Origin: Lachnospiraceae bacterium
Lineage (GTDB): Bacteria > Bacillota > Clostridia > Lachnospirales > Lachnospiraceae
NCBI GenBank assembly: GCA_910574745.1
Contig: CAJTCE010000030.1
Coordinates: 1 to 50,133, forward strand
Length of the DNA stretch: 50,133 bases
Reading direction: 5' to 3'
Shown here piece after piece: positions 1,791 to 37,510 of this stretch. How positions within the stretch are numbered: the stretch's first letter is position 1; every line of letters begins with the position of its first letter. The position numbers and the translations under genes were made by a program. The notes below the pieces were generated by a model. It was not told the DNA's origin and ran no database searches. It saw nothing but the letters and a program-made list of their open reading frames with translations.

Positions 1791-2147
1791 TAGACAAAAA
1801 TAGATAAATGGAGTATTATAATCTTAATATTTGTTTGCCAACTATTAGTAATAAGTCATTAGTGAAATGGTTTCCTTATATAAGGGGGCTATTTTTTAGT
1901 TGGTAAAGACTAAAGGAAGAACCTGGTTCTTCTGAAGCATCATGGTAAAAGCCGTGTTCATATATATAGAAACATAAAAAGACAGTTTACTGCTTTCCCG
2001 GATGGTATTTATGACCATCTAACATAACACAGGAAAATGGTATTCTGTCTTTTTATGTATAAATTACTTTCAGAACTGCCATGGACCGATTTTTGGCAGT
2101 TCTTTTATTATATATACAATATAAAAAAGAATGTTTGGAGGAAAAGC
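1791..2147 (+). promoter_or_regulatory. Leader module L1: promoter plus multi-hairpin leader
   Basis: A possible -35 TAGACA (1791) and -10 TATAAT (1817-1822) are 20 bases apart, which is long. The leader has an outer stem TTTGCCAACTA (1834-1844) with TAGTTGGTAAA (1897-1907). This stem encloses a CCTTATATAAGG palindrome and a T-run. Next comes the family's AAAAAGACAG (1976-1985) / CTGTCTTTTT (2045-2054) hairpin. A strong terminator stem AGAACTGCCA/TGGCAGTTCT with TTTTATT follows at 2072-2108. The first gene starts at 2148. Related modules occur at 15357, 22966, 27275, 30744, 34779 and 37229. Confidence 0.7.
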
Positions 2148-2348
2148 ATGAAATGTACAGAGAGTCAAACAAAAGAAACTTTTACCGATGATGAACTGTA
2201 TATTATATCAGACGCAATGTTAAATCTTATTAGATCTACAAATTGTGCTTTAAAACTGATATATGATCAAAACAGTATTGAATCATTAGGTAAATCCTTA
2301 AAAAAATATAAGGAAGTTAATCAAAAAGTTTGTATGATGTTAAAATAG
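2148..2348 (+). CDS. Hypothetical small protein, 66 aa
   Basis: The start at 2148 is chosen because GGAGG lies just upstream; longer readings would run back through the leader hairpins. The protein is small, soluble and probably helical (FTDDELYIISDAMLNLI near residues 13-27). It is not recognised. It is the first gene behind leader L1 and is followed by three more small genes and a terminator at 3083-3123. Confidence 0.65.
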   Translation: MKCTESQTKETFTDDELYIISDAMLNLIRSTNCALKLIYDQNSIESLGKSLKKYKEVNQKVCMMLK

Positions 2349-2379
2349 CGATTTTAGGTAAGAAAGAGAGGAAAATAAA

Positions 2380-2712
2380 ATGAAAAACAAAGTAAATATT
2401 AAATTCTATGCTGGACTTATTGTTATGGAAATGAATCGTGCATGGAAAGCAGAAGCTCTGCTTCAGGAAGGACATAAAACCCTTTTAGGAGAAGATTTGA
2501 GAGTTAAGCGTGATAACAGCGCACGCAATGCAGGATACATGATCTTAAAAGTTAACAGCTTGGTTAGAAAATGTACCGGCTGCGGTTTTCTCAACAAATT
2601 CTACAACATTAGTATTGTGGATGGTAAATTAAAAGAAAGCAGTGAGCTGATGGAGTTATTTGATATGTTCCAGATGTCTGCTCCACTTTTGTATGAACTG
2701 ATTGCAGCATAA
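2380..2712 (+). CDS. Hypothetical protein, 110 aa
   Basis: The ATG follows AGAGAGG at 2365-2371. The protein is soluble with one CxxC pair (KCTGCGF near residues 64-70) and no membrane segment. A single CxxC is not enough to call a zinc site. It is the second gene of the L1 operon and is not recognised. Confidence 0.65.
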   Translation: MKNKVNIKFYAGLIVMEMNRAWKAEALLQEGHKTLLGEDLRVKRDNSARNAGYMILKVNSLVRKCTGCGFLNKFYNISIVDGKLKESSELMELFDMFQMSAPLLYELIAA

Positions 2713-2724
2713 GGAGGATTAAAT

Positions 2725-2937
2725 ATGTTTATTAAAAGAAATGAATTATCATTTCTCCAAAAAGAAATAGAAGCTCTTAGATTTGAAAATGAGGTTCTTA
2801 GGGTTCAAAATGAACATTTTAAAAATAAGAATGAAATGCTTAAAAAGGAAAATAAAGACCTTCAAAGAGAGAAAAATATTTTTGAAATAAAAGTTTCTTT
2901 TATGGAATCAATGGTAAAATTGCTTTCTAAGCACTAA
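2725..2937 (+). CDS. Small coiled-coil protein, 70 aa
   Basis: The start follows AAGGAGG with normal spacing. About residues 8-60 form a near-continuous heptad pattern rich in Glu, Lys, Asn and Leu, so a dimeric coiled coil is likely. No other domain fits in 70 residues. It may act as an assembly or regulatory partner of a neighbouring product, but nothing in the sequence says which. Confidence 0.65.
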   Translation: MFIKRNELSFLQKEIEALRFENEVLRVQNEHFKNKNEMLKKENKDLQREKNIFEIKVSFMESMVKLLSKH

Positions 2938-2964
2938 GTCATTTTTATACAAGGAGAAAGTACT

Positions 2965-3075
2965 ATGATAAAAAAATATTTATTTAAAAAATGGCCCTTT
3001 AAGGATAAATCAATTTATCCTGGGTTAACAAAAAAAAATGGAGTAATTACATTAAAACTTGTTTGGCACAAATAA
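2965..3075 (+). CDS. Very small basic protein, 36 aa
   Basis: An ATG at 2965 follows a good AAGGAG site and opens a 36-residue frame that ends at 3075, just before a strong terminator. The product is basic and aromatic (KKYLFKKWPFKDK near the N-terminus). The well-placed ribosome binding site and the terminator right after the stop support translation. It could be a regulatory peptide of the operon, but that is speculation. Confidence 0.5.
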   Translation: MIKKYLFKKWPFKDKSIYPGLTKKNGVITLKLVWHK

Positions 3076-3082
3076 GGTCAAT

Positions 3083-3123
3083 AAAAATGGATTCAGCATT
3101 AACCATGCTGGATCCATTTTTTT
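3083..3123 (+). terminator. Intrinsic terminator closing the L1 operon
   Basis: AAAAATGGATTCAGCAT pairs with ATGCTGGATCCATTTTT across a short loop and ends in a run of seven T. This separates the L1 operon from the next promoter. Confidence 0.88.
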
Positions 3124-3148
3124 ACTTATTTATATAAAAAGTAATTTG

Positions 3149-3177
3149 TTGATAAATTATTCAATCAATGATATTAT
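3149..3177 (+). promoter_or_regulatory. Promoter TTGATA-17-TATTAT
   Basis: TTGATA at 3149-3154 and TATTAT at 3172-3177 are exactly 17 bases apart, shortly behind a terminator and 46 bases before the 3224 gene. Confidence 0.6.
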
Positions 3178-3223
3178 GTATTTTAAACATAGTACACCAA
3201 AACGGAGCGTAAGGAGAATTAAA

Positions 3224-3952
3224 ATGTCTTCCATAAAACTGTATAAAAAGAAAATAAATATAAAAGGTGGATGGCAGATAGAAGAGCCGGTGGAAAATAA
3301 AATAGACAGAAAATTATGGAGAGTCACAATAGGAGAGGCGAAATATGGGGATAATGTTAAACCCTTACAAATAGAAATTTATGAGGATATATTGGATGAA
3401 TTGGTAAGTGAAAACAAAAATATTATATTAGATATTCAATCTGGCAGAGATCAGGTAAATATGATGTATAGTGGTCATTTGTTAGAATATAACCCACAAA
3501 AAACGGTTCAATACAATAGATTAAGAAAAGTATTAGGAAAATATTCTGTCAGAAAAAAAATAAGGTTATATAATGGTATTTTTCTTAACATGGATTATAA
3601 CTATGCACTACCAGATGAAGTTAAAGAGTTCCAAGGAACTACAAATGCAAATTTAAGAGAAACATATACATTGTTTGTAATCAGGTATCTTTTATGGGAA
3701 GAAATTGAAAAAGATAAAATAAAAAGATTTTCTATTTCTCAAAAAGTACAGGAATTTAGCCAATATATAGAGAACATATCAGCAGAGGAGTTGGCCGAAC
3801 TCGCCAGTGAAGCTCTTTATATAGCTTTTAATTGTGAACCATATCGAAAATATTGTGATGTATTATCAGAAGAATTTGATTTAACAAGGAAAGAAATAAA
3901 AAAAGCAGCTGAGCAAGAAATAATTAATCGTTTTTTTATAGGCAGAAAATAA
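3224..3952 (+). CDS. Hypothetical protein, 242 aa
   Basis: The start at 3224 is chosen for the AAGGAG just upstream; the open frame reaches back to 3059, but across the terminator and promoter. The protein is soluble, lysine- and glutamate-rich, with no signal peptide. Its C-terminal third is helical (about residues 170-242). I do not recognise it. It heads a run of genes with lipoproteins and a CvpA-like protein that continues without a clear terminator until about 8252. Confidence 0.7.
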   Translation: MSSIKLYKKKINIKGGWQIEEPVENKIDRKLWRVTIGEAKYGDNVKPLQIEIYEDILDELVSENKNIILDIQSGRDQVNMMYSGHLLEYNPQKTVQYNRLRKVLGKYSVRKKIRLYNGIFLNMDYNYALPDEVKEFQGTTNANLRETYTLFVIRYLLWEEIEKDKIKRFSISQKVQEFSQYIENISAEELAELASEALYIAFNCEPYRKYCDVLSEEFDLTRKEIKKAAEQEIINRFFIGRK

Positions 3953-4000
3953 TATGATTTGTTAAATAAAAATTATTTTAATGAAATATGGGAGGAAAAA

Positions 4001-4237
4001 ATGACACCTGCAGAAAAAATTTTAATTGAAGAAACCACAAATTTAAATGGTATTGTTTTAATATTTGCTGGAATTTGTATTACAACACTTATTTATTTGA
4101 TAGTAAGTATGATGTTAGATAAAAGGAAATTAACATATTATAAAAAAATAAAAAGACTTATCGAACAAGGACATCAGAAAAAAATGCTAAAGAGCCAAAA
4201 TAATACAGAATATTATCATGAAGATACACCCTGGTAA
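4001..4237 (+). CDS. Small single-pass membrane protein, 78 aa
   Basis: The ATG at 4001 follows GGGAGG. One membrane segment lies at about residues 17-38 (hydrophobic, rich in Ile, Leu and Val), followed by a basic helix KRKLTYYKKIKR and a polar tail. The short N-terminus is acidic, so the tail is probably cytoplasmic. No family is recognised. Confidence 0.65.
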   Translation: MTPAEKILIEETTNLNGIVLIFAGICITTLIYLIVSMMLDKRKLTYYKKIKRLIEQGHQKKMLKSQNNTEYYHEDTPW

Positions 4238-4264
4238 TAAGACACTGGACATCCGAGGATAGAC

Positions 4265-4474
4265 ATGAGAAAAAAAAGAAAAAATGGTACAAATAAAAAA
4301 GTACCAAAGGAGACTGTCGAATTAATTTTAAAGGAATATAAACAGAATAATTTTTCTGATAAAAAACATTATAAAAATCAATATCATAGGACTGGATTAT
4401 CGTATAGACAATTGGCAAAAAAATATAATATCAGTCTTTCAACAATAACCAAAATAATAAATGGTACATATTAA
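4265..4474 (+). CDS. Small helix-turn-helix protein, 69 aa
   Basis: The C-terminal half contains a clear helix-turn-helix: SYRQLAKKYNISLSTITKII at about residues 46-65, with the alternation seen in resolvase- and transposase-type HTH domains. The N-terminus is very basic (RKKRKNGTNKK). At 69 residues it is only a DNA-binding domain, so it may be a small regulator or the remnant of a larger recombinase. A GAGGAT motif sits 10 bases before the start. Its place in front of the lipoprotein genes suggests local control, which is inference. Confidence 0.65.
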   Translation: MRKKRKNGTNKKVPKETVELILKEYKQNNFSDKKHYKNQYHRTGLSYRQLAKKYNISLSTITKIINGTY

Positions 4475-4494
4475 GTAAAAGAAAAGGGATAAGT

Positions 4495-5931
4495 ATGAAA
4501 AAATTAATAATTTTAACAATTTCTATATTAATGACAATAACCATTACTGGATGCTCACTCGATCAGGAAATTTTTCAAAAAGAAGTAGATCCGTATGAAC
4601 AGGTCGCTGTCTTAAAAGAAAATCTGGAAGAGGATGTTTATTATGTTAAAAACGGAACAAAATTTTATGCAGCATTTAAAACAGAAAGAATGGAGAGTAA
4701 GGATAAGAAACAAATAAGGTGGCTGAATGATAATGAAAGAGCATTACCTATTTATTACAAGGGGGAATACATAGCAATTACCTCATCTCAAAATACGGAA
4801 TTTGAAACATCTATTATCCGGTACAAAAATCTTGGATATTCTATTGGGGCAGCAAATTTTTCAATGACGGAAAATGGTTTGTCATGTTCCGAAAAGGATA
4901 TAATAAATGAATCTGATTTTTATAGAGTACTAGGTGATTCCAAAACTATCACAATTGCAGATATAAATGGGACAAGCTTAACAGAAAATGATATATCTGA
5001 ATGTGGTTCAATATTGAATTTGGAAAAGGACGAAGAATACAATATTGGGTATTATATTGGATCATATTATAAGCAGGATATAGTAAAGGCAGAAACTAGA
5101 ATTCTTTATGAATTTGAAAGTTATCCTGTTGAATATAAATTAACAAATAATGGGTATACAACAGTAAAATTACCAGAGGATGCAAAAAGCGGATATTATT
5201 CTATCGGAGATTGCATGTTTATTTATTATGATTTTGAAAAAACATCTTCAGTTTCTGCTAATGAAATTGATATGAATCAGATATATTATGAAGATTTAAC
5301 AGAGTCAATTTTTATAAATTCACAGCAATACAGCTTTGTATTAGATACAGATAAATATAATATGGAAGTCGTATGTCTTTATGAATTTTCCAATTCTAAA
5401 AAAGAAGCTATTAGTGAAGAGGAAGAGCTTCTTGAAGAAAATAATATTAAAGGGTATCTGACTGCACCCAATGGGACTACATATGAAATGGTTTTAAATG
5501 GGGAATATAATACATTAAGAACAAAATTAGATACAGCAATTGCAGGAGGTTGGACAATTAATATAAATCCAAAAACATTGATTATTTCTGATATTAGTGT
5601 AACATCTGATGAAATATTACAGGAAAGTACAGAGCAGGAATATCGGTTTGTTTTTGATGAAGAGACTGGTAATATTAAATTTTTTGTTGAATATGAGGGG
5701 AATGGAGAAGTACATGCCATTATTATAGATCCTAATGGTAACACATATGATTTTGAACCTGAAGGAAAAAGAAATGATAATACAAAAGGAATTTTAAGTT
5801 ATACAATGCCTTATGTGGCAACGGGAGAATATATTGCCAAGGTTTATCACTATACAGATACAGATATAAAAAATGTCTCCTATCAGATTGACACGGGTAA
5901 TGAGACAGATATTATAACTGTTACAGAATAA
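4495..5931 (+). CDS. Lipoprotein, 478 aa
   Basis: A lysine-start signal peptide ends in a lipobox TITGC with the cysteine at about residue 20, so the mature protein should be lipid-anchored outside the membrane. The remainder is acidic and beta-rich. The C-terminal part (about residues 320-478) has two similar stretches of the type GYLTAPNGTTYEM and AIIIDPNGNTYDF, which look like repeated beta-sandwich edges. No enzyme motif is visible. A CvpA-like membrane gene follows after 20 bases and a second lipoprotein after that, suggesting a surface or envelope module. Confidence 0.8.
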   Translation: MKKLIILTISILMTITITGCSLDQEIFQKEVDPYEQVAVLKENLEEDVYYVKNGTKFYAAFKTERMESKDKKQIRWLNDNERALPIYYKGEYIAITSSQNTEFETSIIRYKNLGYSIGAANFSMTENGLSCSEKDIINESDFYRVLGDSKTITIADINGTSLTENDISECGSILNLEKDEEYNIGYYIGSYYKQDIVKAETRILYEFESYPVEYKLTNNGYTTVKLPEDAKSGYYSIGDCMFIYYDFEKTSSVSANEIDMNQIYYEDLTESIFINSQQYSFVLDTDKYNMEVVCLYEFSNSKKEAISEEEELLEENNIKGYLTAPNGTTYEMVLNGEYNTLRTKLDTAIAGGWTININPKTLIISDISVTSDEILQESTEQEYRFVFDEETGNIKFFVEYEGNGEVHAIIIDPNGNTYDFEPEGKRNDNTKGILSYTMPYVATGEYIAKVYHYTDTDIKNVSYQIDTGNETDIITVTE

Positions 5932-5951
5932 AGCTTCGTAATAGAGGTGTT

Positions 5952-6536
5952 ATGGGTATTATTGTAAATTTTATTTTAATTATAACTATAATAGTAGGTA
6001 TTATTGAAGGACAGAAAAAAGGACTGTGGTATACTCTGGTTCCATTTATATCTTTTGCTATATCATATATTATAGTCAGCACTGTTGGAAAAATATGTGT
6101 AGAAGGAATTATGAACATTCTTGGAATTGAGGAGTCGTATTTTACAATTTATGCTCCAGCTGCAAGTTCAGGACCAAGAACAATATCTTCTTTTTTAGAG
6201 ATAGGAAACAGTATAACAGAAACAATAAGTTATTATACAAGCAGTATGTCAAAATCGATTTGCTCTTTAATTATTGTTATATTAGCAGGTGTTATACGAA
6301 AAGTTTTATATATGGTAAAACCGAAGCACATGTTTTTAATGAGCAATATTGACAGACTAGGGGGAAGTATTGCCGGCATTATAAGAAGTCTGATCAGAAT
6401 ATGGGCTTTTTCAGCTATATTAGAAATATTGATTTCACTTAATATTACATTTGTGACAGAATTTTACAATAATTTATTTAACAGTTTTTTGTTTAGGATG
6501 ATAGCATCCTATAATCCATTGTACAGGCTTTTATAA
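5952..6536 (+). CDS. CvpA-like integral membrane protein, 194 aa
   Basis: The start follows AGAGGTG. Four hydrophobic segments can be seen, roughly at residues 2-20, 25-47, 97-117 and 140-165. The N-terminal pattern (GIIVNFILIITIIVGIIEG then KKGLWYTL) and the length fit the CvpA/colicin V production family, whose members are poorly understood inner-membrane proteins. The gene is framed by two lipoprotein genes, so the product probably works with them at the membrane. Family assignment rests on general pattern only. Confidence 0.6.
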   Translation: MGIIVNFILIITIIVGIIEGQKKGLWYTLVPFISFAISYIIVSTVGKICVEGIMNILGIEESYFTIYAPAASSGPRTISSFLEIGNSITETISYYTSSMSKSICSLIIVILAGVIRKVLYMVKPKHMFLMSNIDRLGGSIAGIIRSLIRIWAFSAILEILISLNITFVTEFYNNLFNSFLFRMIASYNPLYRLL

Positions 6537-6573
6537 TTTAGAAATTAAAATATATAATGAAAGAAGAAGTGAA

Positions 6574-7857
6574 ATGAAAAAATACATATTATTTACACTC
6601 ATTATATCTATGACATTTATATTAACAGGATGTGGTTCGAGAGCTGTTTATAAACCACTGTCTTCGGATTATAAAGCTGTGGATAGCATAGAGGGATGTG
6701 TTTTTGGAATACCGGTGCCATTTTCTGAAAAAGCAACAGCAATTACCAGAGTGACAAAGAACGGAGATTATGATGCATCTACATTGTATTCTTATAAAAA
6801 TGGTAATGACCAATATTTAATGTTTTGCATGGATTCTTTTATAATTATTGCACAAAAAAATGTTGATTTTGATTTTTCCAGTGGAGATTATTTAAAGTCA
6901 GTAGAAACAGGAACCATTATGGGAATGTGGCTTCATCCAATTGAGAAGGCTGATGTAGAAACAGGAAAGAATGAAAAAGCAGGAAAAGTGGTCGTTGAGT
7001 CTATAGCAGAAATCACTATGACAGATACGTTATATGGGGATTTTGTGGGGAAATTTGCATATGTATCAAATGGAAAAGATAACTGGGCCATTTTTTGTGG
7101 ATGCCCAGGAGAAAAATATGAAGAATTGGATAAAGAAAGATTAAATGTTATTAATAATGTCGTTTATAGTTTAGCACCTTATGAAAAAGAAAATAACGTA
7201 CCTGAATATGAAGTTGTAGTCAAAGGGGGAACTGTGAGCAGTAATATTCTTCCTGCAACTTCTGTTAGTGAAAATAATAATGTCCAAACTTCCATTAGTC
7301 AAAATGATGTAGAAAAAGAAGATAATATCATAATTTCAAACCAGAATGAAAATAGCAGAATAACAGGTGTACCTTATGATTCCAGTATTTATGATATGTT
7401 AAAAGTTGGAGATTGTGGTTATCTATATGTTGCATCTGAAGAAAAAGGCAATTGTGTACAACCTATCATTAAAGTTGAAGAAATTTATAAGAACGCAGAA
7501 GATATAGTGAAGGAATATTGCAAAGAGTCTGTTGATTATTCTTATCAGGGTGCCCCGATAGGGTGCCATTGGGAAGCAATCAAATATAGTGTAGATTATA
7601 CAGGATGTGGAGAATTACCCTATATTAATATTAAATTATGCGGAGTAGATGGAGAAACATTAAAATACCATGGTATTCCATATGAAAAAAGGACTTATGA
7701 TATTTTTGATAATGTGACTGAAGATGGAACGACCATGTTAAATGCAATTTGTTTTTATGCTGTTCCAAACGGATGTGAAGAGTATGTATTAGAATGCGGA
7801 GATGGAACAGTTGAAATGCCAGATATTAAGTCTGCTTACTATTATATTGGCAAATAG
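6574..7857 (+). CDS. Lipoprotein, 427 aa
   Basis: The signal peptide ends in the lipobox ILTGC (cysteine near residue 20). The exported part has an N-terminal globular region to about residue 210, a Ser/Asn/Glu-rich linker at about 220-260 and a second globular region containing several cysteines at 285-427 that could form disulphides outside the cell. No catalytic motif is recognised. It is the last lipoprotein of the 4495-7857 group and is followed by an HU gene. Confidence 0.8.
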   Translation: MKKYILFTLIISMTFILTGCGSRAVYKPLSSDYKAVDSIEGCVFGIPVPFSEKATAITRVTKNGDYDASTLYSYKNGNDQYLMFCMDSFIIIAQKNVDFDFSSGDYLKSVETGTIMGMWLHPIEKADVETGKNEKAGKVVVESIAEITMTDTLYGDFVGKFAYVSNGKDNWAIFCGCPGEKYEELDKERLNVINNVVYSLAPYEKENNVPEYEVVVKGGTVSSNILPATSVSENNNVQTSISQNDVEKEDNIIISNQNENSRITGVPYDSSIYDMLKVGDCGYLYVASEEKGNCVQPIIKVEEIYKNAEDIVKEYCKESVDYSYQGAPIGCHWEAIKYSVDYTGCGELPYINIKLCGVDGETLKYHGIPYEKRTYDIFDNVTEDGTTMLNAICFYAVPNGCEEYVLECGDGTVEMPDIKSAYYYIGK

Positions 7858-7919
7858 CATTATTAAATGCTTTGCAATAAAAAATAAAAGTCCAAATGTG
7901 GGCAGAAAGAGGTAGAAAT

Positions 7920-8195
7920 ATGACAAAATCAGAACTTATTTCAAAAGTGTCAGAAAAAGCGTGCATAACAAAGGCTGATACAGAGAAAGTATTGGACGCC
8001 TTTTCAAAGGTTGTAACCGGAAGTCTTGTAGTGGGAGAAAAGGTCGTATATCCGGGATTAGGGACATTTGAAGTGGCAGAGAGAGCAGCAAGAACAGGAC
8101 GTAATCCGCAGACGGGGAAAATAATGCAGATTAAAGCGTCTAAGACAGCTAAATTTAAAGGTGCAAAAGCATTAAAAGATGCATTAAATCAATGA
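7920..8195 (+). CDS. HU-family DNA-binding protein, 91 aa
   Basis: The sequence reads as a full-length HU/IHF protein: MTKSELISKVSEKA at the N-terminus, the conserved GLGTFEVAERAARTGRNPQT arm near residues 46-65, and a C-terminal KFKGAKALKDALN helix. HU proteins bend and compact DNA. AGAGGT six bases before the ATG at 7920 decides the start over an upstream in-frame ATG. A strong hairpin after the gene probably ends transcription. HU genes on mobile elements are common and may help recombination or replication of the element. Confidence 0.95.
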   Translation: MTKSELISKVSEKACITKADTEKVLDAFSKVVTGSLVVGEKVVYPGLGTFEVAERAARTGRNPQTGKIMQIKASKTAKFKGAKALKDALNQ

Positions 8196-8251
8196 TAATA
8201 ATTTTGGGAGTATAATTTATTAATAAAAATTTTGTAAAATGAAATTGCTTT

Positions 8252-8287
8252 ATAAGTCGGATTTTCAGAAACTGATGTCCGACTTAT
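8252..8287 (+). terminator. Hairpin after the HU gene, probable terminator
   Basis: ATAAGTCGGA and TCCGACTTAT form a perfect 10-bp stem around a 16-base loop. The following tract is TATTATTTAT rather than a pure T-run, so termination may be partial. A new promoter begins 14 bases later. Confidence 0.65.
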
Positions 8288-8300
8288 ATTATTTATAAAG

Positions 8301-8329
8301 TTGACAAAACGTCTATAAAATGTTACACT
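8301..8329 (+). promoter_or_regulatory. Promoter TTGACA-17-TACACT of an unusual conserved type
   Basis: TTGACAAAACGTCTAT, six bases, then TGTTACACTA can be read here. The minus-strand promoter at 18097-18125 has almost the same sequence, including the spacer part GTCTAT and TGTTACACTA. Identity inside the spacer suggests a shared regulator or sigma-factor preference rather than chance. It drives the genes from 8450. Confidence 0.65.
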
Positions 8330-8449
8330 AAAATAAAAATTTATTACTAAAATGCTATAAAATCTAATTGGGAAAACAAGAAATTGTGGAAAATAAGGTG
8401 CTTGAAAAAATAGTCATTGGTACAAATGACAAGACAGTGGAGGTGTAAA

Positions 8450-8722
8450 ATGGTAGGTAAAAAATGTACAATTATAACCATTATAATGGTAGTAGTTATT
8501 CAGCTTACAGCTTGTGGAATGATGGAATCCCTGTCTCCGGAGTCAATTGAAATACAATCTGATAACCCCTCTCATCCAGAGGAAAATGAAAATAGAAGCA
8601 ATTATATTGTTAATAAAGATAAACAGCCAATAAATGATGGACTATCAGTATCTGATAATGCATATGAACAAATGCAATTGGAGAATAAAATCAGGGAAAT
8701 AGAAAACCTGATAAACAAATAG
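8450..8722 (+). CDS. Small lipoprotein, 90 aa
   Basis: The start at 8450 follows TGGAGGTG. A short basic and hydrophobic leader ends in the lipobox QLTAC (cysteine near residue 22). The mature part is short, polar and acidic with no recognisable fold, and ends in a helix with repeated Asn, Glu and Ile. It heads a three-gene unit with the 8733 and 9425 genes, behind the TTGACAAAA-type promoter. Confidence 0.7.
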   Translation: MVGKKCTIITIIMVVVIQLTACGMMESLSPESIEIQSDNPSHPEENENRSNYIVNKDKQPINDGLSVSDNAYEQMQLENKIREIENLINK

Positions 8723-15356: not shown

Positions 15357-15519
15357 TTGACAATCAGTTATAAAAAGGTAATAATATAATTAAATTTGTG
15401 ACAACTACATAGTAATGAGCCAATAGTGAGACAGTAACCAATGGGGGACTGTCTTTTTTGTTGTTACAAATTAAATAACGTCTGTGAAAGGCGATTAAAT
15501 AGAAAGGAGGCATAGATTT
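15357..15519 (+). promoter_or_regulatory. Leader module L2: promoter and terminator enclosed by a long stem
   Basis: TTGACA (15357) and TATAAT (15385-15390) lie 22 bases apart, so one of the boxes may not be the real one. The leader is compact. AATTTGTGACAAC (15393-15405) pairs with GTTGTTACAAATT (15460-15472) over 13 bp with one G-T pair. Inside lies the terminator AGACAGT/ACTGTCT plus six T (15429-15459). The transcript must pass this terminator to reach the 15520 gene. This enclosing-stem layout matches L1 and L4. Confidence 0.7.
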
Positions 15520-22965: not shown

Positions 22966-23262
22966 TTGACAAATCTAATAAATATATAGTATAATATATT
23001 CATAATTTGTTACACAAAAAATTGTAATAAGTATTTTGTCCGCATCCTTAATAGATAAAGGGTGCGTTTTTTGATTTCAGGGGATAAAAATCCCCCCTTA
23101 AACGTGGAATTCCACGATCATATAGATTTAGAAACATAAAAAGACAGTTTGTTTTATTCCAGCATCATTAAATGGAAAAAAACTGTCTTTTTATATGCAA
23201 TTCTTTATACAGGTAAAAACCTGTTTTATATATTGAAAATCAAAATGTTAAGGAGGAATGAG
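22966..23262 (+). promoter_or_regulatory. Leader module L3: promoter and five-hairpin leader
   Basis: TTGACA (22966-22971) and TATAAT (22990-22995) have 18-base spacing. The leader then carries, in order: an intrinsic-terminator-like hairpin CGCATCCTT/AAGGGTGCG with six T (23041-23072); an AGGGGAT/ATCCCCCCT hairpin (23079-23098); the palindrome CGTGGAATTCCACG (about 23103-23116); an AAAAAGACAGTTT/AAACTGTCTTTTT hairpin (about 23139-23192); and ACAGGTAAAAACCTGT (about 23209-23224). The same order is found in L5, L6 and L7. The first gene begins at 23263 behind AAGGAGG. Confidence 0.8.
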
Positions 23263-23613
23263 ATGGAGTTAAGCAACGAAATTATAATCGCTGTTAAAGA
23301 GTGTAAATTTTCTTTAAGTGCAGTTGATAATTGTGTAGGCCAATGCATTGTTGAAATGTATCGACCTATACCGGGGTCAGATGTATGGAATGAAACAATC
23401 TGGTTTGATGGAACGAATGGAAATTTCATTGAAGCCGTCAGGGAGAGAGCAAATGAATTTGATGTTGAAAAAGAGGCCAAATTCTCAGAATGGTTTAATC
23501 AACGGATAAAAAATATTATATCTGATTTTTTAACCTTGGTCAAAGATGCTGAATGGAAAAAGGTTGAATTGCAAAAATTAGCAACCTCGCTGGAAGCACT
23601 GAATCTTAAATAA
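23263..23613 (+). CDS. Hypothetical protein, 116 aa
   Basis: The start at 23263 is decided by AAGGAGG; the longer open frame would begin inside the leader hairpin. The protein is soluble and helical, with two conserved-looking cysteines near residues 12 and 27. It is first in the L3 operon, which runs to the terminator at 27184. Not recognised. Confidence 0.65.
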   Translation: MELSNEIIIAVKECKFSLSAVDNCVGQCIVEMYRPIPGSDVWNETIWFDGTNGNFIEAVRERANEFDVEKEAKFSEWFNQRIKNIISDFLTLVKDAEWKKVELQKLATSLEALNLK

Positions 23614-27274: not shown

Positions 27275-27420
27275 TATAATTATATATTTGTGAAAATAAA
27301 ATAGTAATGCGATATTTGTAACAGGAACCTATATTGGTTGCCTGTTTTTTTATTTTCACGAAACAGGCAGCAGGGAGAAAATTTCTTCCTGCTTATTTCA
27401 ATTTAAAGGAGGAAAAGTAT
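27275..27420 (+). promoter_or_regulatory. Leader module L4: TATAAT and enclosed terminator
   Basis: TATAAT lies at 27275-27280 without a clear -35. GTGAAAATAAAA (27290-27301) pairs perfectly over 12 bp with TTTTATTTTCAC (27348-27359). Enclosed is the terminator ACAGGAACC/GGTTGCCTGT with seven T (27321-27351). The terminator's T-run takes part in the outer stem, so the two structures compete. A further AGCAGGGAGAAA/TTTCTTCCTGCT hairpin follows, about 20 bases before the ribosome binding site of the 27421 gene. Confidence 0.65.
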
Positions 27421-30738: not shown

Positions 30739-30743
30739 TTGTT

Positions 30744-31042
30744 TTGACAAAACTTAATAATTATTATATAATATATTTATAATTTGTTATTATATATATT
30801 TGTGATAGGTACTTTGTTGGCATCCTTTTTAAGGGTGTATTTTTGTTTTTAGGGGAAAAATGTCCCTTTTAACGTGAATATTCACGATCATATAAATATG
30901 GAAAACGTAAAAAGACTGTCTTTTCTCAATTAAGAAGAACGAAAAAGGCCGTTTTTTTATTTGTAATTTTTTATCCAGGTAAGAACCTGTTTTATATAAA
31001 AATATAGCTTAAATTAGCAAAAACAGAAAGGTGGAAAAGTAT
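30744..31042 (+). promoter_or_regulatory. Leader module L5
   Basis: TTGACA (30744-30749) and TATAAT (30767-30772) have 17-base spacing. The leader repeats the L3 order: GCATCCTT/AAGGGTGT with a T-rich tract (30820-30846), AGGGG.../...CCCTTTT, the AACGTGAATATTCACGAT palindrome (30871-30888), AAAAAGAC hairpins (30908-30958, more degenerate than in L3) and CAGGTAAGAACCTG (about 30976-30989). The first gene begins at 31043. Confidence 0.78.
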
Positions 31043-31819: not shown

Positions 31820-31861
31820 GTATCCTGAATGGATAAATGAACAGATTAAGGAGGAAGATAA

Positions 31862-32041
31862 ATGACAAAATGTATGAGATTGAATAATAGAGTTGTAAGT
31901 ACGGAAAATATTACTTTTTTTCAATGGTTAAACACATATGAATTTATGTGTAAAAGAGAATTCAAGGAGTTGCCCAGGTATAAGCAGGAAAATTATAGAC
32001 GGGAGTTCGAATTGTTTAAAAAAGGAATCGGAGGATATTAA
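31862..32041 (+). CDS. Small basic protein, 59 aa
   Basis: An ATG at 31862 behind AAGGAGG opens a 59-codon frame ending at 32041, one base before the next ATG. The product is basic and helical (CKREFKELPRYKQENYRREF near residues 33-52). Its position and ribosome binding site support it as a real gene of the L5 operon. Not recognised. Confidence 0.65.
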   Translation: MTKCMRLNNRVVSTENITFFQWLNTYEFMCKREFKELPRYKQENYRREFELFKKGIGGY

Positions 32042-32042
32042 A

Positions 32043-32663
32043 ATGGGATGGACATCTTACCATGCAACATATTATAAAAAAGGAACTGTTGACAGGAAAG
32101 CAGAATGCGACGCTTATTTTATGGAAGGGTCAAATGCCGAATTTTATAAGGTTATAAAATCAGCACTTGTTGGTTCGGTATATTATGCAGCTGTTATGAA
32201 CTTAAAGCGGTATTCAGATAGGCGGGATGAAAGTAATCATCGCATTATTGAGGATATACCGGAAAATAAGCGCACTGTATGGGCGGTCGTTTTTCTTACT
32301 TCGGTAAACAGTAAGGACTATTTTAACTTTGCCTACAAAGATTTGAGTGAGGATATGGGACCAATAGCGGATAGATGCCCGACATCAATTTTGAATCTGT
32401 TAAGTCCTACTGATAACAAACAAGCTATTGCTTGGCGTGAGCGTTGTCAGAAAAATAATGAGAAAAAGAAAAATCCTCAATCGTTAAGTAATTTACCTAT
32501 CGGTACGGTAATACGTTTCACAAATGGGGAAGGCAAATTCGTTGAGTTGTTAAAACATCCGGCAGCATTCCAATTTAAGAGGCCGTTTTGGTACTGTAAA
32601 GAATTAGGTTGCTATATGCCGACCACACGAATCCCTGATAGTTACGAGGTAATAAGTGCATAA
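32043..32663 (+). CDS. DUF6927-like protein, 206 aa
   Basis: The start at 32043 follows GGAGG, and the opening MGWTSYHATYYKKGTVDRKA is characteristic of a family found in phages and conjugative elements of Clostridia (I believe DUF6927; assigned from memory). The middle (TVWAVVFLTSVNSKDYFNFA, near residues 80-99) looks like a beta-rich core, and the C-terminus contains an SH3-like stretch (GTVIRFTNGEGKFVELLKH). Function is unknown. Confidence 0.65.
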   Translation: MGWTSYHATYYKKGTVDRKAECDAYFMEGSNAEFYKVIKSALVGSVYYAAVMNLKRYSDRRDESNHRIIEDIPENKRTVWAVVFLTSVNSKDYFNFAYKDLSEDMGPIADRCPTSILNLLSPTDNKQAIAWRERCQKNNEKKKNPQSLSNLPIGTVIRFTNGEGKFVELLKHPAAFQFKRPFWYCKELGCYMPTTRIPDSYEVISA

Positions 32664-32686
32664 GAGTCTAGGAGGAATAGTAAAAT

Positions 32687-32878
32687 ATGGACAATAAAGA
32701 ATTAGAAAAATTGTGGGACGAGTTTGAAGACGTATTATTTATAGAATCAGATAATGGTACTTTGGTTCTTGCATCAAGTTGGAATGGTTTTGACCCGGGT
32801 ACAGATAGGGAAACCATTTGGCATTGGTTTGATGAACGTCATAGCAAAGGTGTTGGCTGGTTATTAAGCGGCACTTAA
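32687..32878 (+). CDS. Small acidic protein, 63 aa
   Basis: AGGAGG precedes the start. The product is acidic and aromatic, with the C-terminal segment WHWFDERHSKGVGWLLSGT. Small acidic proteins of this composition appear next to anti-restriction-type genes in mobile elements, but I cannot assign it. Confidence 0.6.
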   Translation: MDNKELEKLWDEFEDVLFIESDNGTLVLASSWNGFDPGTDRETIWHWFDERHSKGVGWLLSGT

Positions 32879-32916
32879 GTGTTAAAAAATAAGTTCAGAA
32901 ACAGGAGGTAATAATT

Positions 32917-33489
32917 ATGGAATTAATACATCATGGATATTACGAAGCAGATAAAGGAAAACATTTTGTTCTTACGGAAAAGGGCAAGGCAGAATGTGTT
33001 ACAGAAGGTTATGAAGTCGTTTATGATTATAACGGTTACACACTAAGTGCGGGTAATCATATAGTTTTTCCGAAGAGACAAATTGCGGAAAGCTACATGA
33101 AAAACCAGGAGAAAAAATCTTGGATGAAGAAACATAAACTCTATATTCGTACTGGGATTTATGAAGGAGTAGCTTTAAAAGAGTGCAGGACTCATGACAA
33201 TAAGCAGGTGTATAATACCGATTGGTTTTATGGCATTGATTGTCTTCAGTTAGGGGATTTAGTTGAAGAAGAAATTATTGATGATATAATTGACGCTTTG
33301 CCCCCGGCCTGCATGAGAACTGACTGTACACAGTTAGGAGAACCTGCTGACCATAGAATTGATGAAAACGGAAAAACCCGTGCTGTTTTTGCCACATTTA
33401 AACGTATTGCAGAGAACACATGGGAATATTGCGGCAATTGTTTTAGAGGCGAGAACATACAACGAGGCATTGAACCGGCATATGTATAG
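32917..33489 (+). CDS. Hypothetical protein, 190 aa
   Basis: CAGGAGG precedes the start. The protein is soluble; the N-terminal part has a winged-helix-like opening (HHGYYEADKGKHFVLTEKGK) and the C-terminal part has several cysteines (CMRTDC, CGNC) that could bind zinc. Not recognised. It is followed within 15 bases by the 33504 gene. Confidence 0.65.
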   Translation: MELIHHGYYEADKGKHFVLTEKGKAECVTEGYEVVYDYNGYTLSAGNHIVFPKRQIAESYMKNQEKKSWMKKHKLYIRTGIYEGVALKECRTHDNKQVYNTDWFYGIDCLQLGDLVEEEIIDDIIDALPPACMRTDCTQLGEPADHRIDENGKTRAVFATFKRIAENTWEYCGNCFRGENIQRGIEPAYV

Positions 33490-33503
33490 AAAGGAGACGT
33501 AAT

Positions 33504-34511
33504 ATGAAAGAAATCAAAGTAAGACTGTATCGGTCAGAAGATGACAACTATATTGAGCTATGGAAGGTTATTAATCCTGAAAAAGGTAAAACTCAATATT
33601 ATGGCCGATACATGCACAATAATGAGGGACTTTGGATTTATGTAGCCGACCCACTGGGATATTGTGAAAGGGATCACAATGTTCCCGATGATGTGGTTTT
33701 TATTTTGTGCGACGAAAATGGCAAAGAATATTACAGATATTCCAATGCGGACGAAAATCCTCTTCCTACTTTGGAAGAAGTGATAAAAGCAGAGTGGAAC
33801 AAAGTAAAGGGCAGCATTACACACAATGCAGAGAATTACGCAAAAGACTTCTTGACAGAAGTAAAATGCGGAGAGACCACGCTGAGCTTAAATCAGTGGT
33901 TGTTGTCGTTCAAGGACCCTGATTTATACCAGAAGGCAATTGCCGATATGTTCGGATACGACGATAACTGGTTGTATGGTACAAAGTCCGGAAAAGAAAT
34001 TAAGTATGAACCTATTTCAGGGACTGTATTTTCATACCTGGGCCACGAATATCAGTTTACAGCCGTAACCTGTAAACATGATATATGTGGCGTCGAATGG
34101 ATTGAATACAAATGTACCGATGCGCCTTATATTGTAGAGGATTGGAATCATAGGGTAAAATCTTATGGTAATGACGTAGGCAATTATTATGACGCAACAA
34201 AAATTGGGACTATGTATGATATTCGGACAGCACGGCAACTTGTCGCAGATGCGTTAATGAAGATTTATCCGCAAGCAGAGCGAAATGCTTCATTGCTGTA
34301 TGTTAAGAAAAGCGGTTGTAAGATATTGCTAAAATTATCCTACGAAGAAGCTGCTGAAATTCTGTTAGGTGGAGAACTGCATCGGAGTAAGGTTTTAGAA
34401 TTAATAGAATCTGAAAAACAGAAAAATCATTTTCATCTGTATACAAGAGAAAATAAGAAATCAATTATTGCGGCGAATCCTGGCATTATTGATAATACAT
34501 GGAGGTATTAA
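33504..34511 (+). CDS. Hypothetical protein, 335 aa
   Basis: AAAGGAG precedes the start. The first 110 residues are beta-rich, residues about 120-155 look helical, and a long mixed region follows. It has no signal peptide or membrane segment and no catalytic motif that I can recognise. The two-domain look and its place among small accessory genes fit a multi-domain element-borne protein, perhaps with anti-restriction-like parts, which is speculation. Confidence 0.65.
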   Translation: MKEIKVRLYRSEDDNYIELWKVINPEKGKTQYYGRYMHNNEGLWIYVADPLGYCERDHNVPDDVVFILCDENGKEYYRYSNADENPLPTLEEVIKAEWNKVKGSITHNAENYAKDFLTEVKCGETTLSLNQWLLSFKDPDLYQKAIADMFGYDDNWLYGTKSGKEIKYEPISGTVFSYLGHEYQFTAVTCKHDICGVEWIEYKCTDAPYIVEDWNHRVKSYGNDVGNYYDATKIGTMYDIRTARQLVADALMKIYPQAERNASLLYVKKSGCKILLKLSYEEAAEILLGGELHRSKVLELIESEKQKNHFHLYTRENKKSIIAANPGIIDNTWRY

Positions 34512-34513
34512 AA

Positions 34514-34681
34514 ATGACAAACGAAGAATTCTTAAAGTTACATTTGGCTATGACGTATGAAGAACATAACAAAAGTGATTGCACACAGTGCAGCAGAGAA
34601 AACTGTATACACAGAAACGCATATAGGAGACTCCCCGAATCTGAGGGTGGGTTAGCTTTATGTCCACGCTTAAATGAATAG
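34514..34681 (+). CDS. Small Cys/His protein, 55 aa
   Basis: The start at 34514 follows GGAGG, which overlaps the end of the preceding gene. DCTQCSRENCIHRNAYRRLP (about residues 19-38) holds three cysteines and a histidine in a zinc-finger-like arrangement, with one more cysteine near the end. It is the last gene of the L5 operon. Confidence 0.6.
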   Translation: MTNEEFLKLHLAMTYEEHNKSDCTQCSRENCIHRNAYRRLPESEGGLALCPRLNE

Positions 34682-34740
34682 TACAGAAATAGATAGGATT
34701 AAATGATGAAAGCCGGCTATGGTATGGTTTTCATCCCAAA

Positions 34741-34777
34741 AAAGGCTCAGTAAATATAACTACTGAGCCTTTTTATT
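34741..34777 (+). terminator. Intrinsic terminator closing the L5 operon
   Basis: AAAGGCTCAGTA and TACTGAGCCTTT form a 12-bp stem with a T-run. The T-run merges into the -35 box of leader L6 at 34779. Confidence 0.9.
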
Positions 34778-34778
34778 T

Positions 34779-35036
34779 TTGACAAATGTGAATAAATATT
34801 ATATAATATATCCATAATTTGTTGTAAAAAAATTGTGATATGTATTTTGTTTGCATCCTTTTTATGGGGTGCTTTTTTGTTTTCAGGGATAATATATCTC
34901 TTTTAACGTGAATTCTCACGATTATATAAATATTTGGAATGTAAAAAGACAGTTTATTTTATTTGTATTAAAGGAATAAAAAGCTGTCTTTTTATATGTA
35001 TTTTTTACACAGGTTAATAACCTGTTATATATATAT
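34779..35036 (+). promoter_or_regulatory. Leader module L6
   Basis: TTGACA (34779-34784) and TATAAT (34802-34807) have 17-base spacing. The order is again a GCATCC.../...GGGGTGC hairpin with six T (34852-34880), an AGGGAT.../...ATCTC pair, AACGTGAATTCTCACG (34905-34920), AAAAAGACAG (34943-34952)/CTGTCTTTTT (34984-34993) and ACAGGTTAATAACCTGT (35009-35025). It leads into a gene that has lost its start. Confidence 0.8.
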
Positions 35037-35485
35037 GATGATGGAACAGAAGCCGAAATATCAAGTGATGATGATTGGAAAGAAATTGAACAACACTATG
35101 AATGGGGTGGTGGATTTGGACAGGAACTGCCAACGGTTGACCTGAAACTGCCGGATGGAAAGAGAATTGTTGCACCGGAAGTAGTTGATATTTCTGCAAT
35201 CGACACACTGGATGAACTGGAATACAGTTTATGGGGGACGATTGAAGAATATCTATCTCTGTTTGGTATCAGAACAGAGGATGATAGTCCTGATTTTGGA
35301 ACAGTTAAAGCTGTGCAGGATAAACTGTTAGAAGTCCTTATGGATGCAGGTATCAATTTTCAATTCTTTGATAACTGTGAATCACAGGATAAATCTGTGT
35401 AAATGGCCATTATTTTGCACTGACACCAATTGACGCAGACTATGTTGTTCAGTATGCGTTATTTGGAACTATTATTTATAAATAA
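35037..35485 (+). pseudogene. Gene truncated at its 5' end and frameshifted
   Basis: An open frame DDGTEAEISSDDDWKEIEQH begins at 35037, right behind the leader hairpin, without a start codon or ribosome binding site. It runs to a stop at 35400. In the next frame the text continues as ICVNGHYFALTPIDADYVVQ and ends at 35485. Adding one A to the AAA run near 35391-35393 joins both into one protein of about 150 residues. So the gene lost its 5' end, probably by a deletion that fused leader L6 to its interior, and then lost a base. Its end resembles small antirestriction-type element proteins, but the family is not certain. Confidence 0.7.
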
Positions 35486-35497
35486 GGAGGAATAATT

Positions 35498-35833
35498 ATG
35501 TCATATGATTTGAATGCCAAGGCAAAAGAAGTAAAGAAAATTGTATATGATAAAAATGAAAAAAATAAAGACAAGGAGAGGACCTTTTTATATTTTAAAA
35601 TTATAGAAAGGGCTGAAAAGGAAGGTTTATACAATGGGCAAAAATTGAATCTGATGATGGACATTGAAAGTGCGGATAAAAAATTTAATTTAAGGCTTAA
35701 CGAGTGGCTTAATGCCGATAAATTTAATTTTGCACATGACCTTTTTGGTATTATGAATAACATTGTCCGCAATGAATTTCCCTCATCAAATTTTGGCTCT
35801 TTTGTCCCTAGATTTGCTGGCCAGTATAATTAG
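35498..35833 (+). CDS. Hypothetical helical protein, 111 aa
   Basis: AAGGAGG precedes the start. The protein is basic at the N-terminus and helical throughout, with MMDIESADKKFNLRLNEWL near residues 48-66. Not recognised. It is the first intact gene behind L6. Confidence 0.62.
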   Translation: MSYDLNAKAKEVKKIVYDKNEKNKDKERTFLYFKIIERAEKEGLYNGQKLNLMMDIESADKKFNLRLNEWLNADKFNFAHDLFGIMNNIVRNEFPSSNFGSFVPRFAGQYN

Positions 35834-35847
35834 AAGGAGGAAAAGAA

Positions 35848-36339
35848 ATGAAAAAGCTTAACAGACGGATATATGAATTTGGAGAATATCTTTTGGATAC
35901 ATTTGATTACAAGCTTCCGGGTCAGATTTTGGAAGAAGAAAAGCAAAAGGTTTCAGAAGAAATTGAAAAATTCAGAAAGGAATGCATAGCTGAAGAAAAA
36001 CCCTTAGATTATGGCGAAGAAGATTATTTAAAATCTATTGCCAGTCAAATTCATAATAAGTGGGTATTTCGTGATGCAGAAAGACTTCTCTATAAAAGGA
36101 CTATAGCAATCATTGATTACATTGAAAATTTCACAGAAGGCGAGATAGAAACTAATGATGAGGTAGAAGAATTAATTAATTATGCAGGTCAGTTCTATGA
36201 GGAAGAAAGAAAACGATTTGCTGGTAGTCCAATTGAATTCTTTTTTGAAAAAGAGTTTATGAATGCATATACGGCTGCAATGAATTGTGCATGTGAACAT
36301 ATCAATGAAATTCAAATGAAGGAGAAAAATAAGAATTAA
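35848..36339 (+). CDS. Hypothetical helical protein, 163 aa
   Basis: AAGGAGG precedes the start. The product is all-helical and strongly charged, rich in Glu and Lys, with no membrane segment. Not recognised. A perfect 11-bp hairpin follows, between it and the next gene. Confidence 0.62.
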   Translation: MKKLNRRIYEFGEYLLDTFDYKLPGQILEEEKQKVSEEIEKFRKECIAEEKPLDYGEEDYLKSIASQIHNKWVFRDAERLLYKRTIAIIDYIENFTEGEIETNDEVEELINYAGQFYEEERKRFAGSPIEFFFEKEFMNAYTAAMNCACEHINEIQMKEKNKN

Positions 36340-36341
36340 TC

Positions 36342-36370
36342 ATATGTGGCGGCCCTGTACCGCCACATAT
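36342..36370 (+). repeat. Perfect 11-bp hairpin inside the L6 operon
   Basis: ATATGTGGCGG and CCGCCACATAT surround a seven-base loop, with no T-run. It may stabilise or process the mRNA, or act as a weak attenuator before the 36394 gene. Confidence 0.6.
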
Positions 36371-36393
36371 AATAAGTTTAGGAGGACGAAATT

Positions 36394-36603
36394 ATGGGAA
36401 TTATCGAAGGAAAAAAGAAATATGAAATAACAGGATATAAAGTCTATGAATGCCCTAAATCGCCTACGGAAAAAGGTTTGTATTATGGAAAAACCCCAAT
36501 TTTAGAACAGGCTGAAGGGATAATCAAAAGAGCTAAAGAATCCGGCAAACACTTATTTCTTAAGGCCGTCTGCAGTGATGGAATTGAGAGATATATGTTT
36601 TAG
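36394..36603 (+). CDS. Hypothetical small protein, 69 aa
   Basis: AGGAGG precedes the start. The protein is small and alpha/beta, with YEITGYKVYECPKSPTEKGL near residues 9-28. Not recognised. Confidence 0.6.
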   Translation: MGIIEGKKKYEITGYKVYECPKSPTEKGLYYGKTPILEQAEGIIKRAKESGKHLFLKAVCSDGIERYMF

Positions 36604-36637
36604 CTTAAAAAACGAAGAAAGAAAAGAGGAAAATACA

Positions 36638-37177
36638 ATGTTAAATAAGAGAGCAAAAAAATTAATTGGTTATAACCATTTGGTGGAGGATCTTGCAAAA
36701 AAAATATTGTCTGAAGAACTCGATAATTTGGAAACCAAAAATCTAAAAGAAATTCTGGGTGCAGGATATGAAAAATGGGAGTTTAAGGATTGGTATAGAC
36801 TTCTTGCCGATATTAAACGGAAAAAGAGAGAAGCGGATCATGAGGCAATAACGGCAGAGATAATCTTTAATGGTCTACCATGGGCGGCACAACAAGCCGC
36901 ACAAGAAGCGGTAAGGATATTGTTAAGGAAAGCTACTGCAGAAAGGCTTTTCAAAGTGGATGAAGCAGTAGAGACGGCGGCAGAAATTATCTGGAATATG
37001 TTTTATTGCATGAAGATTGATATTAAGCATACGGTTCAAAAACTGAATGAAAGAAATAAAGCGTATTCACATAATGATTTGAAAGAAAATAGATTGTTGA
37101 TGGACTTTATAGAGGAATTAAGGAAAGAGCAATGGAGAGAAGGGAATGTAGCAAGGCTTAGAACTAAAGCTTTGTGA
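36638..37177 (+). CDS. Hypothetical helical protein, 179 aa
   Basis: The ATG at 36638 follows AGAGGAAA; an open frame from 36575 would overlap the previous gene. The protein is helical with an alanine-rich middle (LPWAAQQAAQEAVRILLRKA near residues 88-107). It ends the L6 operon and is followed by a terminator at 37189. Not recognised. Confidence 0.62.
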   Translation: MLNKRAKKLIGYNHLVEDLAKKILSEELDNLETKNLKEILGAGYEKWEFKDWYRLLADIKRKKREADHEAITAEIIFNGLPWAAQQAAQEAVRILLRKATAERLFKVDEAVETAAEIIWNMFYCMKIDIKHTVQKLNERNKAYSHNDLKENRLLMDFIEELRKEQWREGNVARLRTKAL

Positions 37178-37188
37178 TATGAATCTAA

Positions 37189-37228
37189 ATAAACAGACAC
37201 GGTATTTTAGATATCGGGTCTGTTTATT
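37189..37228 (+). terminator. Intrinsic terminator closing the L6 operon
   Basis: AAACAGACACG and GGGTCTGTTT pair around a loop and run into TATTTT directly before the L7 -35 box. Confidence 0.75.
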
Positions 37229-37510
37229 TTGACAAAAGTTTATAAATTTTATATAATATAAACATAATTTGTGATTTAAAAATTTGTGATTTGTAATTTG
37301 TTGACATCCTGTAAAGGGTGTGTTTTTGATTTTAGGGGCGCTATGTCTCTTTTAGCGTGAATTATCACGATTATATAGATAATAAATATAAGATGACAGT
37401 TTATTTTATGTCCATATTACTAAGTGGAATAAATCAACTGTCTTTTTATATGTATTTTTTTAATACAGGTTACAAACCTGTTTTATATATAAATTAATAT
37501 ATAGTATAAA
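37229..37510 (+). promoter_or_regulatory. Leader module L7, now reading into an IS element
   Basis: TTGACA (37229-37234) and TATAAT (37252-37257) have 17-base spacing. The leader repeats the family order: CATCCTGTAAAGGGTG with a T-run (37303-37330), AGGGGCG.../...TCTCTTTT, AGCGTGAATTATCACGAT (37354-37371), GATGACAGTTT/AACTGTCTTTT (37391-37446) and ACAGGTTACAAACCTGT (37465-37481). A ribosome-binding-like AAAGGAG lies near 37508-37514, but its gene is missing: the IS110 element starts about here. Confidence 0.8.

Follow-up and report, generated by a model that had tools for sequence, protein, structure and literature searches.

A family of leaders with a common motif-terminator core, repeated ahead of operons on a likely conjugative plasmid of a Lachnospiraceae bacterium

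A leader repeated along an element

What is controlled by a leader that recurs ahead of one operon after another on a single element? This question is raised by contig CAJTCE010000030.1 (C30) of the 4.35-Mb draft genome of a Lachnospiraceae bacterium (assembly GCA_910574745.1). The entire contig, 50,133 nucleotides (nt), was analysed and is called the window below. A sequence-only reading had located seven related promoter-leader modules in it (L1 to L7), each with a TATAAT promoter and a long untranslated leader with terminator-like hairpins, and had suggested that they form one antitermination or attenuation switch for the whole element. Their coordinates are correct, and the observation is confirmed to be real and larger than first described: this genome carries 18 modules, seven on C30, four on C28 (at 2.6k, 22k, 44.8k and 46.9k) and seven in the part of C2 from 213k to 297k (C2:213-297k; at 213k, 268k, 280k, 283k, 287k, 292k and 295k). 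The interpretation is partly supported. One structured leader family does serve the whole element, but what its members share is a core made of TNGT units and a terminator and not the five-hairpin order (found in 7 of the 18 modules). Switching is suggested by the terminator that lies right after the start in 17 of the 18 modules, an arrangement that conditional or partial read-through most readily explains.

Since the nearest described arrangement is that of EGeRS1, one of the establishment-gene sequences of pLS20-family plasmids, we propose, with a probability of about one half, that the modules form a plasmid-wide regulon of the establishment type, whose leaders would carry conditional promoter-proximal terminators working by attenuation or antitermination.

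A core of TNGT units phased to a terminator

All seven leaders of the window share a core, overlooked in the sequence-only reading, in which three TNGT units are followed, 2-4 nt past the third, by the hairpin of an intrinsic terminator. Its layout is TNGT, 14-16 nt, TNGTRATNNG and TNGT, with Gs 7+7 nt apart, and then the hairpin; the terminators in the modules and upstream of them are predicted from sequence. The window, C28 and C2:200-297k were searched with a pattern that combined units 2 and 3 with the G midway between them (the mid G) and tolerated two mismatches. This gave 32 matches, of which 17 are modules. Unit 1 (the TNGT located 14-16 nt upstream), which lay outside the pattern, is present in 17 of the 17 modules versus 1 of the 15 other matches, its background rate being 5.1% (259 of 5103 TNGT sites).

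These 17 modules were tabulated with a locus from another genome of the same genus (G301). The Gs of unit 2, of the middle and of unit 3 are 7+7 nt apart in the 18 rows, a spacing that was part of the search pattern, and unit 1 is found in all of them. The hairpin lies 2-4 nt after unit 3 in 17 rows (16 of the 17 element modules), whereas unit 1 stands anywhere between 7 and 14 nt from the -10 box (15 rows with TATAAT). The core motif therefore keeps its phase with the hairpin and not with the promoter, an argument for its being read at the RNA level. A leader peptide within the core, for which some copies have an ATG, was dropped since this ATG is not conserved and no Shine-Dalgarno (SD) sequence precedes it.

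The modules of the window all lie on the plus strand. L1 (1791-2110) consists of a promoter, a core (1830-1899) and a closing stem P1 that extends to 1910, followed by hairpins akin to the long-class helices 3-4 described below and by a terminator (2075-2100). L2 (15357-15475) includes a core (15395-15459), a terminator hairpin and a P1 stem formed by TTTGTGACAAC/GTTGTTACAAA, and its TTGACA box begins 4 nt past the upstream stop codon. L4 (27275-27395), a short-class module, has a TATAAT, a core (27287-27352), a P1 stem reaching 27362 and a second hairpin (27369-27393). In short-class leaders, P1 encloses the core and the terminator, and its sequence differs between copies. The other four belong to the long class: L3 (22966-23237; core 23006-23074, then hairpins 2-5 and an SD sequence with an ATG at 23263), L5 (30744-31004; core 30783-30846), L6 (34779-35035; core 34818-34881) and L7 (37229-37493; core 37268-37330). 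A TATAAT promoter had been assigned to each leader. The promoters predicted at L3, L5, L6 and L7 match the consensus at 12 of 12 positions; L4 does have a TATAAT but no recognisable -35 box, and the -35 box of L1 is TAGACA.

The two classes are also connected by sequence models. A first model (R1), although trained on eight short-class copies, finds 6 of the 7 long-class copies at E up to 1, with 33.6 bits for C2_283k, 28.4 for one of the two C28 copies (C28a), 27.1 for L3 and 19-22 for L6, L7 and the other C28 copy (C28b). A later model (R2), built from 17 cores, recovered C2_268k, which was absent from its training set, and added the module at C28:2613-2674 (35.3 bits; C28_2.6k).

Covarying RNA structure in the long class

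Repeat search and alignment indicate that L3, L5, L6 and L7 are copies of a cassette of about 260 nt. They align over 260-280 nt and carry the five hairpins in the order that had been reported for them. Three further long-class copies are located on the minus strand of C28 (44.8k and 46.9k) and of C2 (283k); L1, L2 and L4 lack the five-hairpin order. In the alignment of the seven copies the five hairpins covary, 9 of the 39 pairs being changed on both sides and 95.2% of the cells being able to pair. The observed value was reached by none of 500 shuffles on four of five measures and by 260 of 500 on the fifth (further pair types), and alignments in which the hairpins were slid pair only 41-64% of their cells. 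Hence, the paired changes between copies do reflect a conserved RNA structure, as some of them had suggested. The arms AAAAAGACAG/CTGTCTTTTT attributed to helix 4 are not literally present in L5 and L7, although most positions still pair there.

The RNA fold of the leader start is more stable than that of shuffles for L1, L2, L3, L4 and L6 (z -3.5 to -5.9), weaker for L5 (z -2.3) and not clearly beyond shuffles for L7 (z -1.2), and up to three terminator-like hairpins stand in series within a leader. Moreover, an upstream intrinsic terminator ends 4 nt before the TTGACA box in five of the seven long-class copies (L6, L7, C28a, C28b and C2_283k); those of L6 (34739-34774) and L7 (37192-37224) lie on the plus strand of the window.

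Distribution of the core

R2 gave 18 matches at E up to 0.1 over the whole genome of the strain (127 of 2704 first-look candidates being scored), all of them on C30, C28 and C2:213-297k, and R1 found 13 places at E up to 1, all on the same three contigs. In 180 kb of the chromosome, R2 matched nothing at E up to 1. These data show that, within this genome, the core is restricted to the element. On pCY186 of Butyrivibrio proteoclasticus, R2 had one match (E 0.58).

Among 41 relatives, including this strain, six genomes have an R2 match at E 0.1, and two outside loci were accepted, both from genomes of the same genus: G301 (51.3 bits) and G304:C32 (34.7 bits). A match in G319 was rejected despite its E of 2.4e-5, being antisense between SCIFF-like and radical-SAM-like genes (named by eye) and without unit 3; those of G314 and G009 were rejected as weak or misplaced. 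In both G301 and G304, the leader has a gene for a helix-turn-helix (HTH) protein on one side and a second gene on the other. The HTH gene may be its partner, since the two HTH proteins are homologous (30% identity, E 3e-39). The second gene is YhgA-like in G301 and its G304 counterpart has no Pfam or NCBIfam match. A conserved nuclease partner of the Rpn type was considered, C28_22k and G301 preceding relatives of PF12784 and PF04754, and was abandoned: besides the lack of a family match in G304, no significant BLAST match joins the genes at C28_22k, G301 and G304. In the genome-contig collection, one relative of the C28_22k nuclease has no core beside it.

Wider searches brought little more. 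In 397 genomes of the family, R2 matches at E 0.001 are limited to this strain; weak copies could be missed by this search, because its scoring was limited to 13 candidates per genome and it returned only 13 of the 18 known modules. R1 found this genome and G301 among nine of the genus, and this genome plus one weak match (G252) among 299 genomes of the family and 392 of the order; the latter, having neither unit 1 nor unit 2 nor a clear -10 box, was attributed to chance. A blastn search with one long-class copy matched this genome and, shortly and weakly (E 5e-5 to 7e-4), ten others among 200 of the family, as well as three weak phage records; it had no match at E 0.1 in 72,556 plasmid records. 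A strict long-class promoter pattern occurs in no stretch of the genome-contig collection and in three of viral contigs, which were set aside since none is matched by R1. A TATAAT-plus-core pattern matches 26 viral contigs; by inspection, a hairpin plus T-run follows in none of the 26, and four have a T-run without hairpin. In Rfam release 15, the whole window gave no leader match at the gathering score, the sole matches being two to group II introns (1180-1461). Five others lie far below this score (E 1.8-4.5) and are not credible; three of the five fall on a leader or on the terminator upstream of one.

R1 was also run on six plasmid records of the DUF5704 type, where its eight matches, in three of the six (best E 0.057), were rejected by inspection as not being the core. 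Plasmids of Paenibacillus and Thermobacillus with DUF5704 genes show, by eye, a long outer stem around an inner hairpin that has a T-run of its own; this layout resembles P1 plus terminator but lacks the core motif.

A regulon with conditional terminators

In the regulon that we propose, each module is a promoter of the sigma-A type followed immediately by a leader with three TNGT units and by the adjacent terminator, to which long-class copies add four hairpins and often the upstream terminator beside the -35 box. The operon would be insulated from upstream transcription and expressed once a polymerase coming from its own promoter passes the leader terminator. This passage could be conditional in two ways: either a factor would read the TNGT units on the nascent RNA and block or enforce the hairpin (attenuation), or the folded leader itself would modify the polymerase (antitermination). 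If the establishment-gene sequences of the pLS20 family are a guide, DNA maintenance and establishment after transfer would be the role of the regulon. More tentatively, the leaders may represent a new class of conditional-termination leaders, in which TNGT units at steps of about 14 nt, with a G at 7-nt steps across units 2-3, would decide on the nascent RNA the fate of the adjacent terminator, their reader being a ring-like RNA-binding protein or RNA polymerase. With 18 such switches, one plasmid would then turn on its operons for maintenance and establishment jointly, and separately from its transfer genes. Little is settled about the way in which conjugative plasmids of Clostridia activate their genes in a new host. 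The candidate control element described here is a small one with a defined structure and 18 copies, and simple reporters could test it. Furthermore, core plus hairpin provide a handle for listing the regulon.

EGeRS1 is found in multiple copies on one conjugative plasmid of Gram-positive bacteria (62-95% identical on pLS20), each just upstream of a ribosome-binding site and an operon of variable genes; it includes several inverted repeats, is separate from the transfer operon and has a mechanism described as unknown (PMC8708921). Likewise, the modules occur in 18 copies, 15 of them directly before an intact open reading frame (ORF), with inverted repeats and apart from the transfer operon. They differ from EGeRS1, which is 420-750 bp long and GC-richer than its plasmid (PMC8708921), in being short (120-320 bp) and AT-rich (0.24-0.34 GC). 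EGeRS1-B blocks read-through from an upstream promoter, and no constitutive promoter was found in it (PMC8708921), unlike the predicted sigma-A consensus promoters of L3, L5, L6 and L7. The identity of more than 60% to the pLS20 copies that characterises EGeRS1 was not found, as judged from R2 and from blastn of one long-class copy rather than from direct pairwise alignment. The best R2 match on the whole of pLS20 (18.1 bits, E 0.056, at 39659-39709) is not upstream of the gene for a zincin-like metallopeptidase, which we took for ardC. The literature searched, in which subscription papers were mostly out of reach, gave no description of this leader. Within that range the earlier statement that no described family has this exact hairpin order holds, but similar repeats that block read-through have been described, as EGeRS1 illustrates (PMC8708921).

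Several observations weigh against the proposed regulon. No trans-acting factor was identified, HutP being absent and no systematic search for RNA-binding proteins having been made, and no mutually exclusive terminator/antiterminator pairing was found in the leaders. The leader fold is not uniform, because P1 exceeds shuffles in only six of the 18 rows (L1, L2, L4, C2_213k, C2_295k and C2_287k; p 0.001-0.023, uncorrected for 18 tests). Some copies also deviate: C2_268k has no hairpin, L5 is missed by R1, units 2 and 3 of C28_2.6k are just 13 nt apart and the G304 locus lacks the mid G. Moreover, the two accepted outside loci lie beside HTH genes and were not seen in conjugative elements, and the establishment label would derive from the minority of module-led genes that have known domains, several of these being weak.

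HutP-type leaders carry triplets at 7-nt steps near a terminator. The G-containing triplets found here at 7-nt steps near a terminator are comparable, but their second base is variable (TNG). HutP (PF09021) had no match at E up to 1 in this genome, in a search whose control was positive in Bacillus subtilis.

Alternative explanations

The leader RNA might act alone on the polymerase, which would then pass both the leader terminator and later terminators of the operon, as in the processive antitermination of put, EAR or canT. We consider this less probable than the proposed regulon, though a serious candidate. Like conAn (pLS20), canT (Tn916), EAR and put, the leaders are RNA elements near a promoter that would act on terminators, and conAn, canT and put also occur in mobile elements (PMC8955417, PMC11658703). 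Their place at the transcript start, their conserved fold, the terminator directly past the core and the serial hairpins would suit such a device, and the motif of G301 and G304, at loci not seen in such a plasmid, would fit one that needs no factor. However, conAn and canT serve one long conjugation operon (PMC8955417, PMC11658703), whereas the 18 copies precede other operons and the transfer operon, the usual customer, has none. Furthermore, R2 finds nothing convincing in pLS20, the carrier of conAn2 (best E 0.056), and a need for long-range read-through does not follow from the L1 interval, since both of its terminators precede promoter-like sites. Control at the DNA level, in which the TNGT units would be repressor operators and the hairpins only insulators and mRNA stabilisers, appears rather unlikely but is, with RNA-only antitermination, one of the two main rivals. 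It would follow the logic of EGeRS2 and of Reg of p576, where a promoter plus shared sites are found ahead of several operons of one plasmid (PMC8708921), as they are here. The units stand at about +1 to +35, a normal operator position, and shared operators under a repressor are known from clade II plasmids of the pLS20 family (PMC8708921). Against this, their 14-bp spacing would set the sites on different helix faces, their distance is conserved with respect to the hairpin but not to the -10 box, the EGeRS2 dual motif TTATCCCnnTTATCCC is absent from both strands of all three contigs, and covarying RNA structure is present.

The modules could also be recently copied repeats without RNA function, inherited together with their operons. 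Long-class copies are clearly paralogous, and L6 and L7 resemble products of recombination; this is nevertheless very unlikely in view of the compensatory changes, which stand out from shuffles and slid partners, and of the short-class leaders, which have different stems and keep the same core. Least probable of all are promoters active in single-stranded DNA upon entry of the transferred strand. Such Frpo promoters are repeated before SSB and anti-defence genes (PMC11541004), and the modules are similarly repeated, with inverted repeats, before an SSB gene and other genes of the leading-region type. However, Frpo would join the -35 and -10 boxes in one long stem, and this is never seen when L2 and L4 (one strand) and L5 (both strands) are folded as DNA: the two boxes of L5 lie in separate small local hairpins and the -10 box of L4 in a short local one. 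The 12/12 double-strand consensus of the promoters of L3, L5, L6 and L7 also speaks against it.

Genes behind the modules

A script placed an SD-preceded ORF 90-318 nt past 13 of the 18 modules, and inspection added C28a and C28_22k. For L6, L7 and C2_213k, the module is not directly followed by an original gene in intact form. Each module had been said to open an operon; of the seven in the window, five directly face an intact gene. The frame behind L6 (35034-35402) has no start codon and is joined directly to the leader, intact genes following it, as if recombination had set the leader onto a gene without 5' end; L7 now faces an IS110-type transposase (37607-38926). Each co-directional run behind a module probably forms one operon. 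Nevertheless, the L1 interval, previously described as an operon ending at a terminator, may not be a single one, because two terminators lie within it (at 3083-3121 and at 8253-8286), both with a promoter-like site behind them; in this sequence, chance alone yields many sites of this kind.

The module-led runs encode an SSB and a DUF3854/CHC2 protein (C2_287k), a RecD-like helicase (C2_280k), YodL and SNase (C2_283k), ParB-like, AbiEi-like and DnaB_2 proteins (C28a), and NrdG-like and NrdD proteins (C28_2.6k). Others encode DUF4317 and PcfJ-like proteins (L2), a PAPS-reductase-like protein (L3), DUF6874 (L6), a VWA protein (C2_292k), a weak AAA_6 match (C2_295k), a PDDEXK_2 protein (C28_22k) and, in the L4 run, a methyltransferase-like protein (below the Pfam cut-off) directly behind the module and a DUF3560 protein. 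Primase-like and nuclease genes are thus among those led by modules, as are many small genes, of which most of those tested had no family match. On C2, the searches revealed no module beside the transfer genes, rep or the ParAB pair, nor near the VirD4-type/VirB4-like genes or in the gap upstream of them (263,985-264,280).

The element and other features of the window

Family searches indicate that C2:213-297k encodes a Rep3 initiator, ParA/ParB, and VirD4/TraG-type and VirB4-like proteins. C2 and C28 are probably neighbours, since the C-terminal part of nrdD lies at the C2 end and its N-terminal part at the C28 start. C30 would belong to the same replicon because it shares the modules with them. 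In the simplest reading, the three thus look like one large conjugative plasmid. One C30 protein is related to pCY186 (29.5% identity over 95%, in two pieces), which also tops the match list of the VirD4-type protein. C2 left of 212.7k looks chromosomal (ORFs read by eye, without family search), so that integration or a misjoin is possible.

Besides those of the modules, an intrinsic terminator lies before L4 (27177-27217, plus strand), and a strong hairpin between the L2 operon and L3 (22899-22923) was terminator-like in the scan on the minus strand only. The group II intron domain matches (RF02001 and RF01998) are located just upstream of L1. An HU-like DNA-binding protein is encoded at 7896-8195, and pCY186 encodes one as well. 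At 39489-40991, a profile of type III restriction enzymes is matched in its C-terminal part (715-856 of 871 for the best stretch), so that this may be a fragment. Finally, homologues of DrmA, DrmB and DrmC, of the DISARM-type defence, stand in a row at 41015-46907 and are followed by a gene for a Vsr-like nicking endonuclease (46921-47361).

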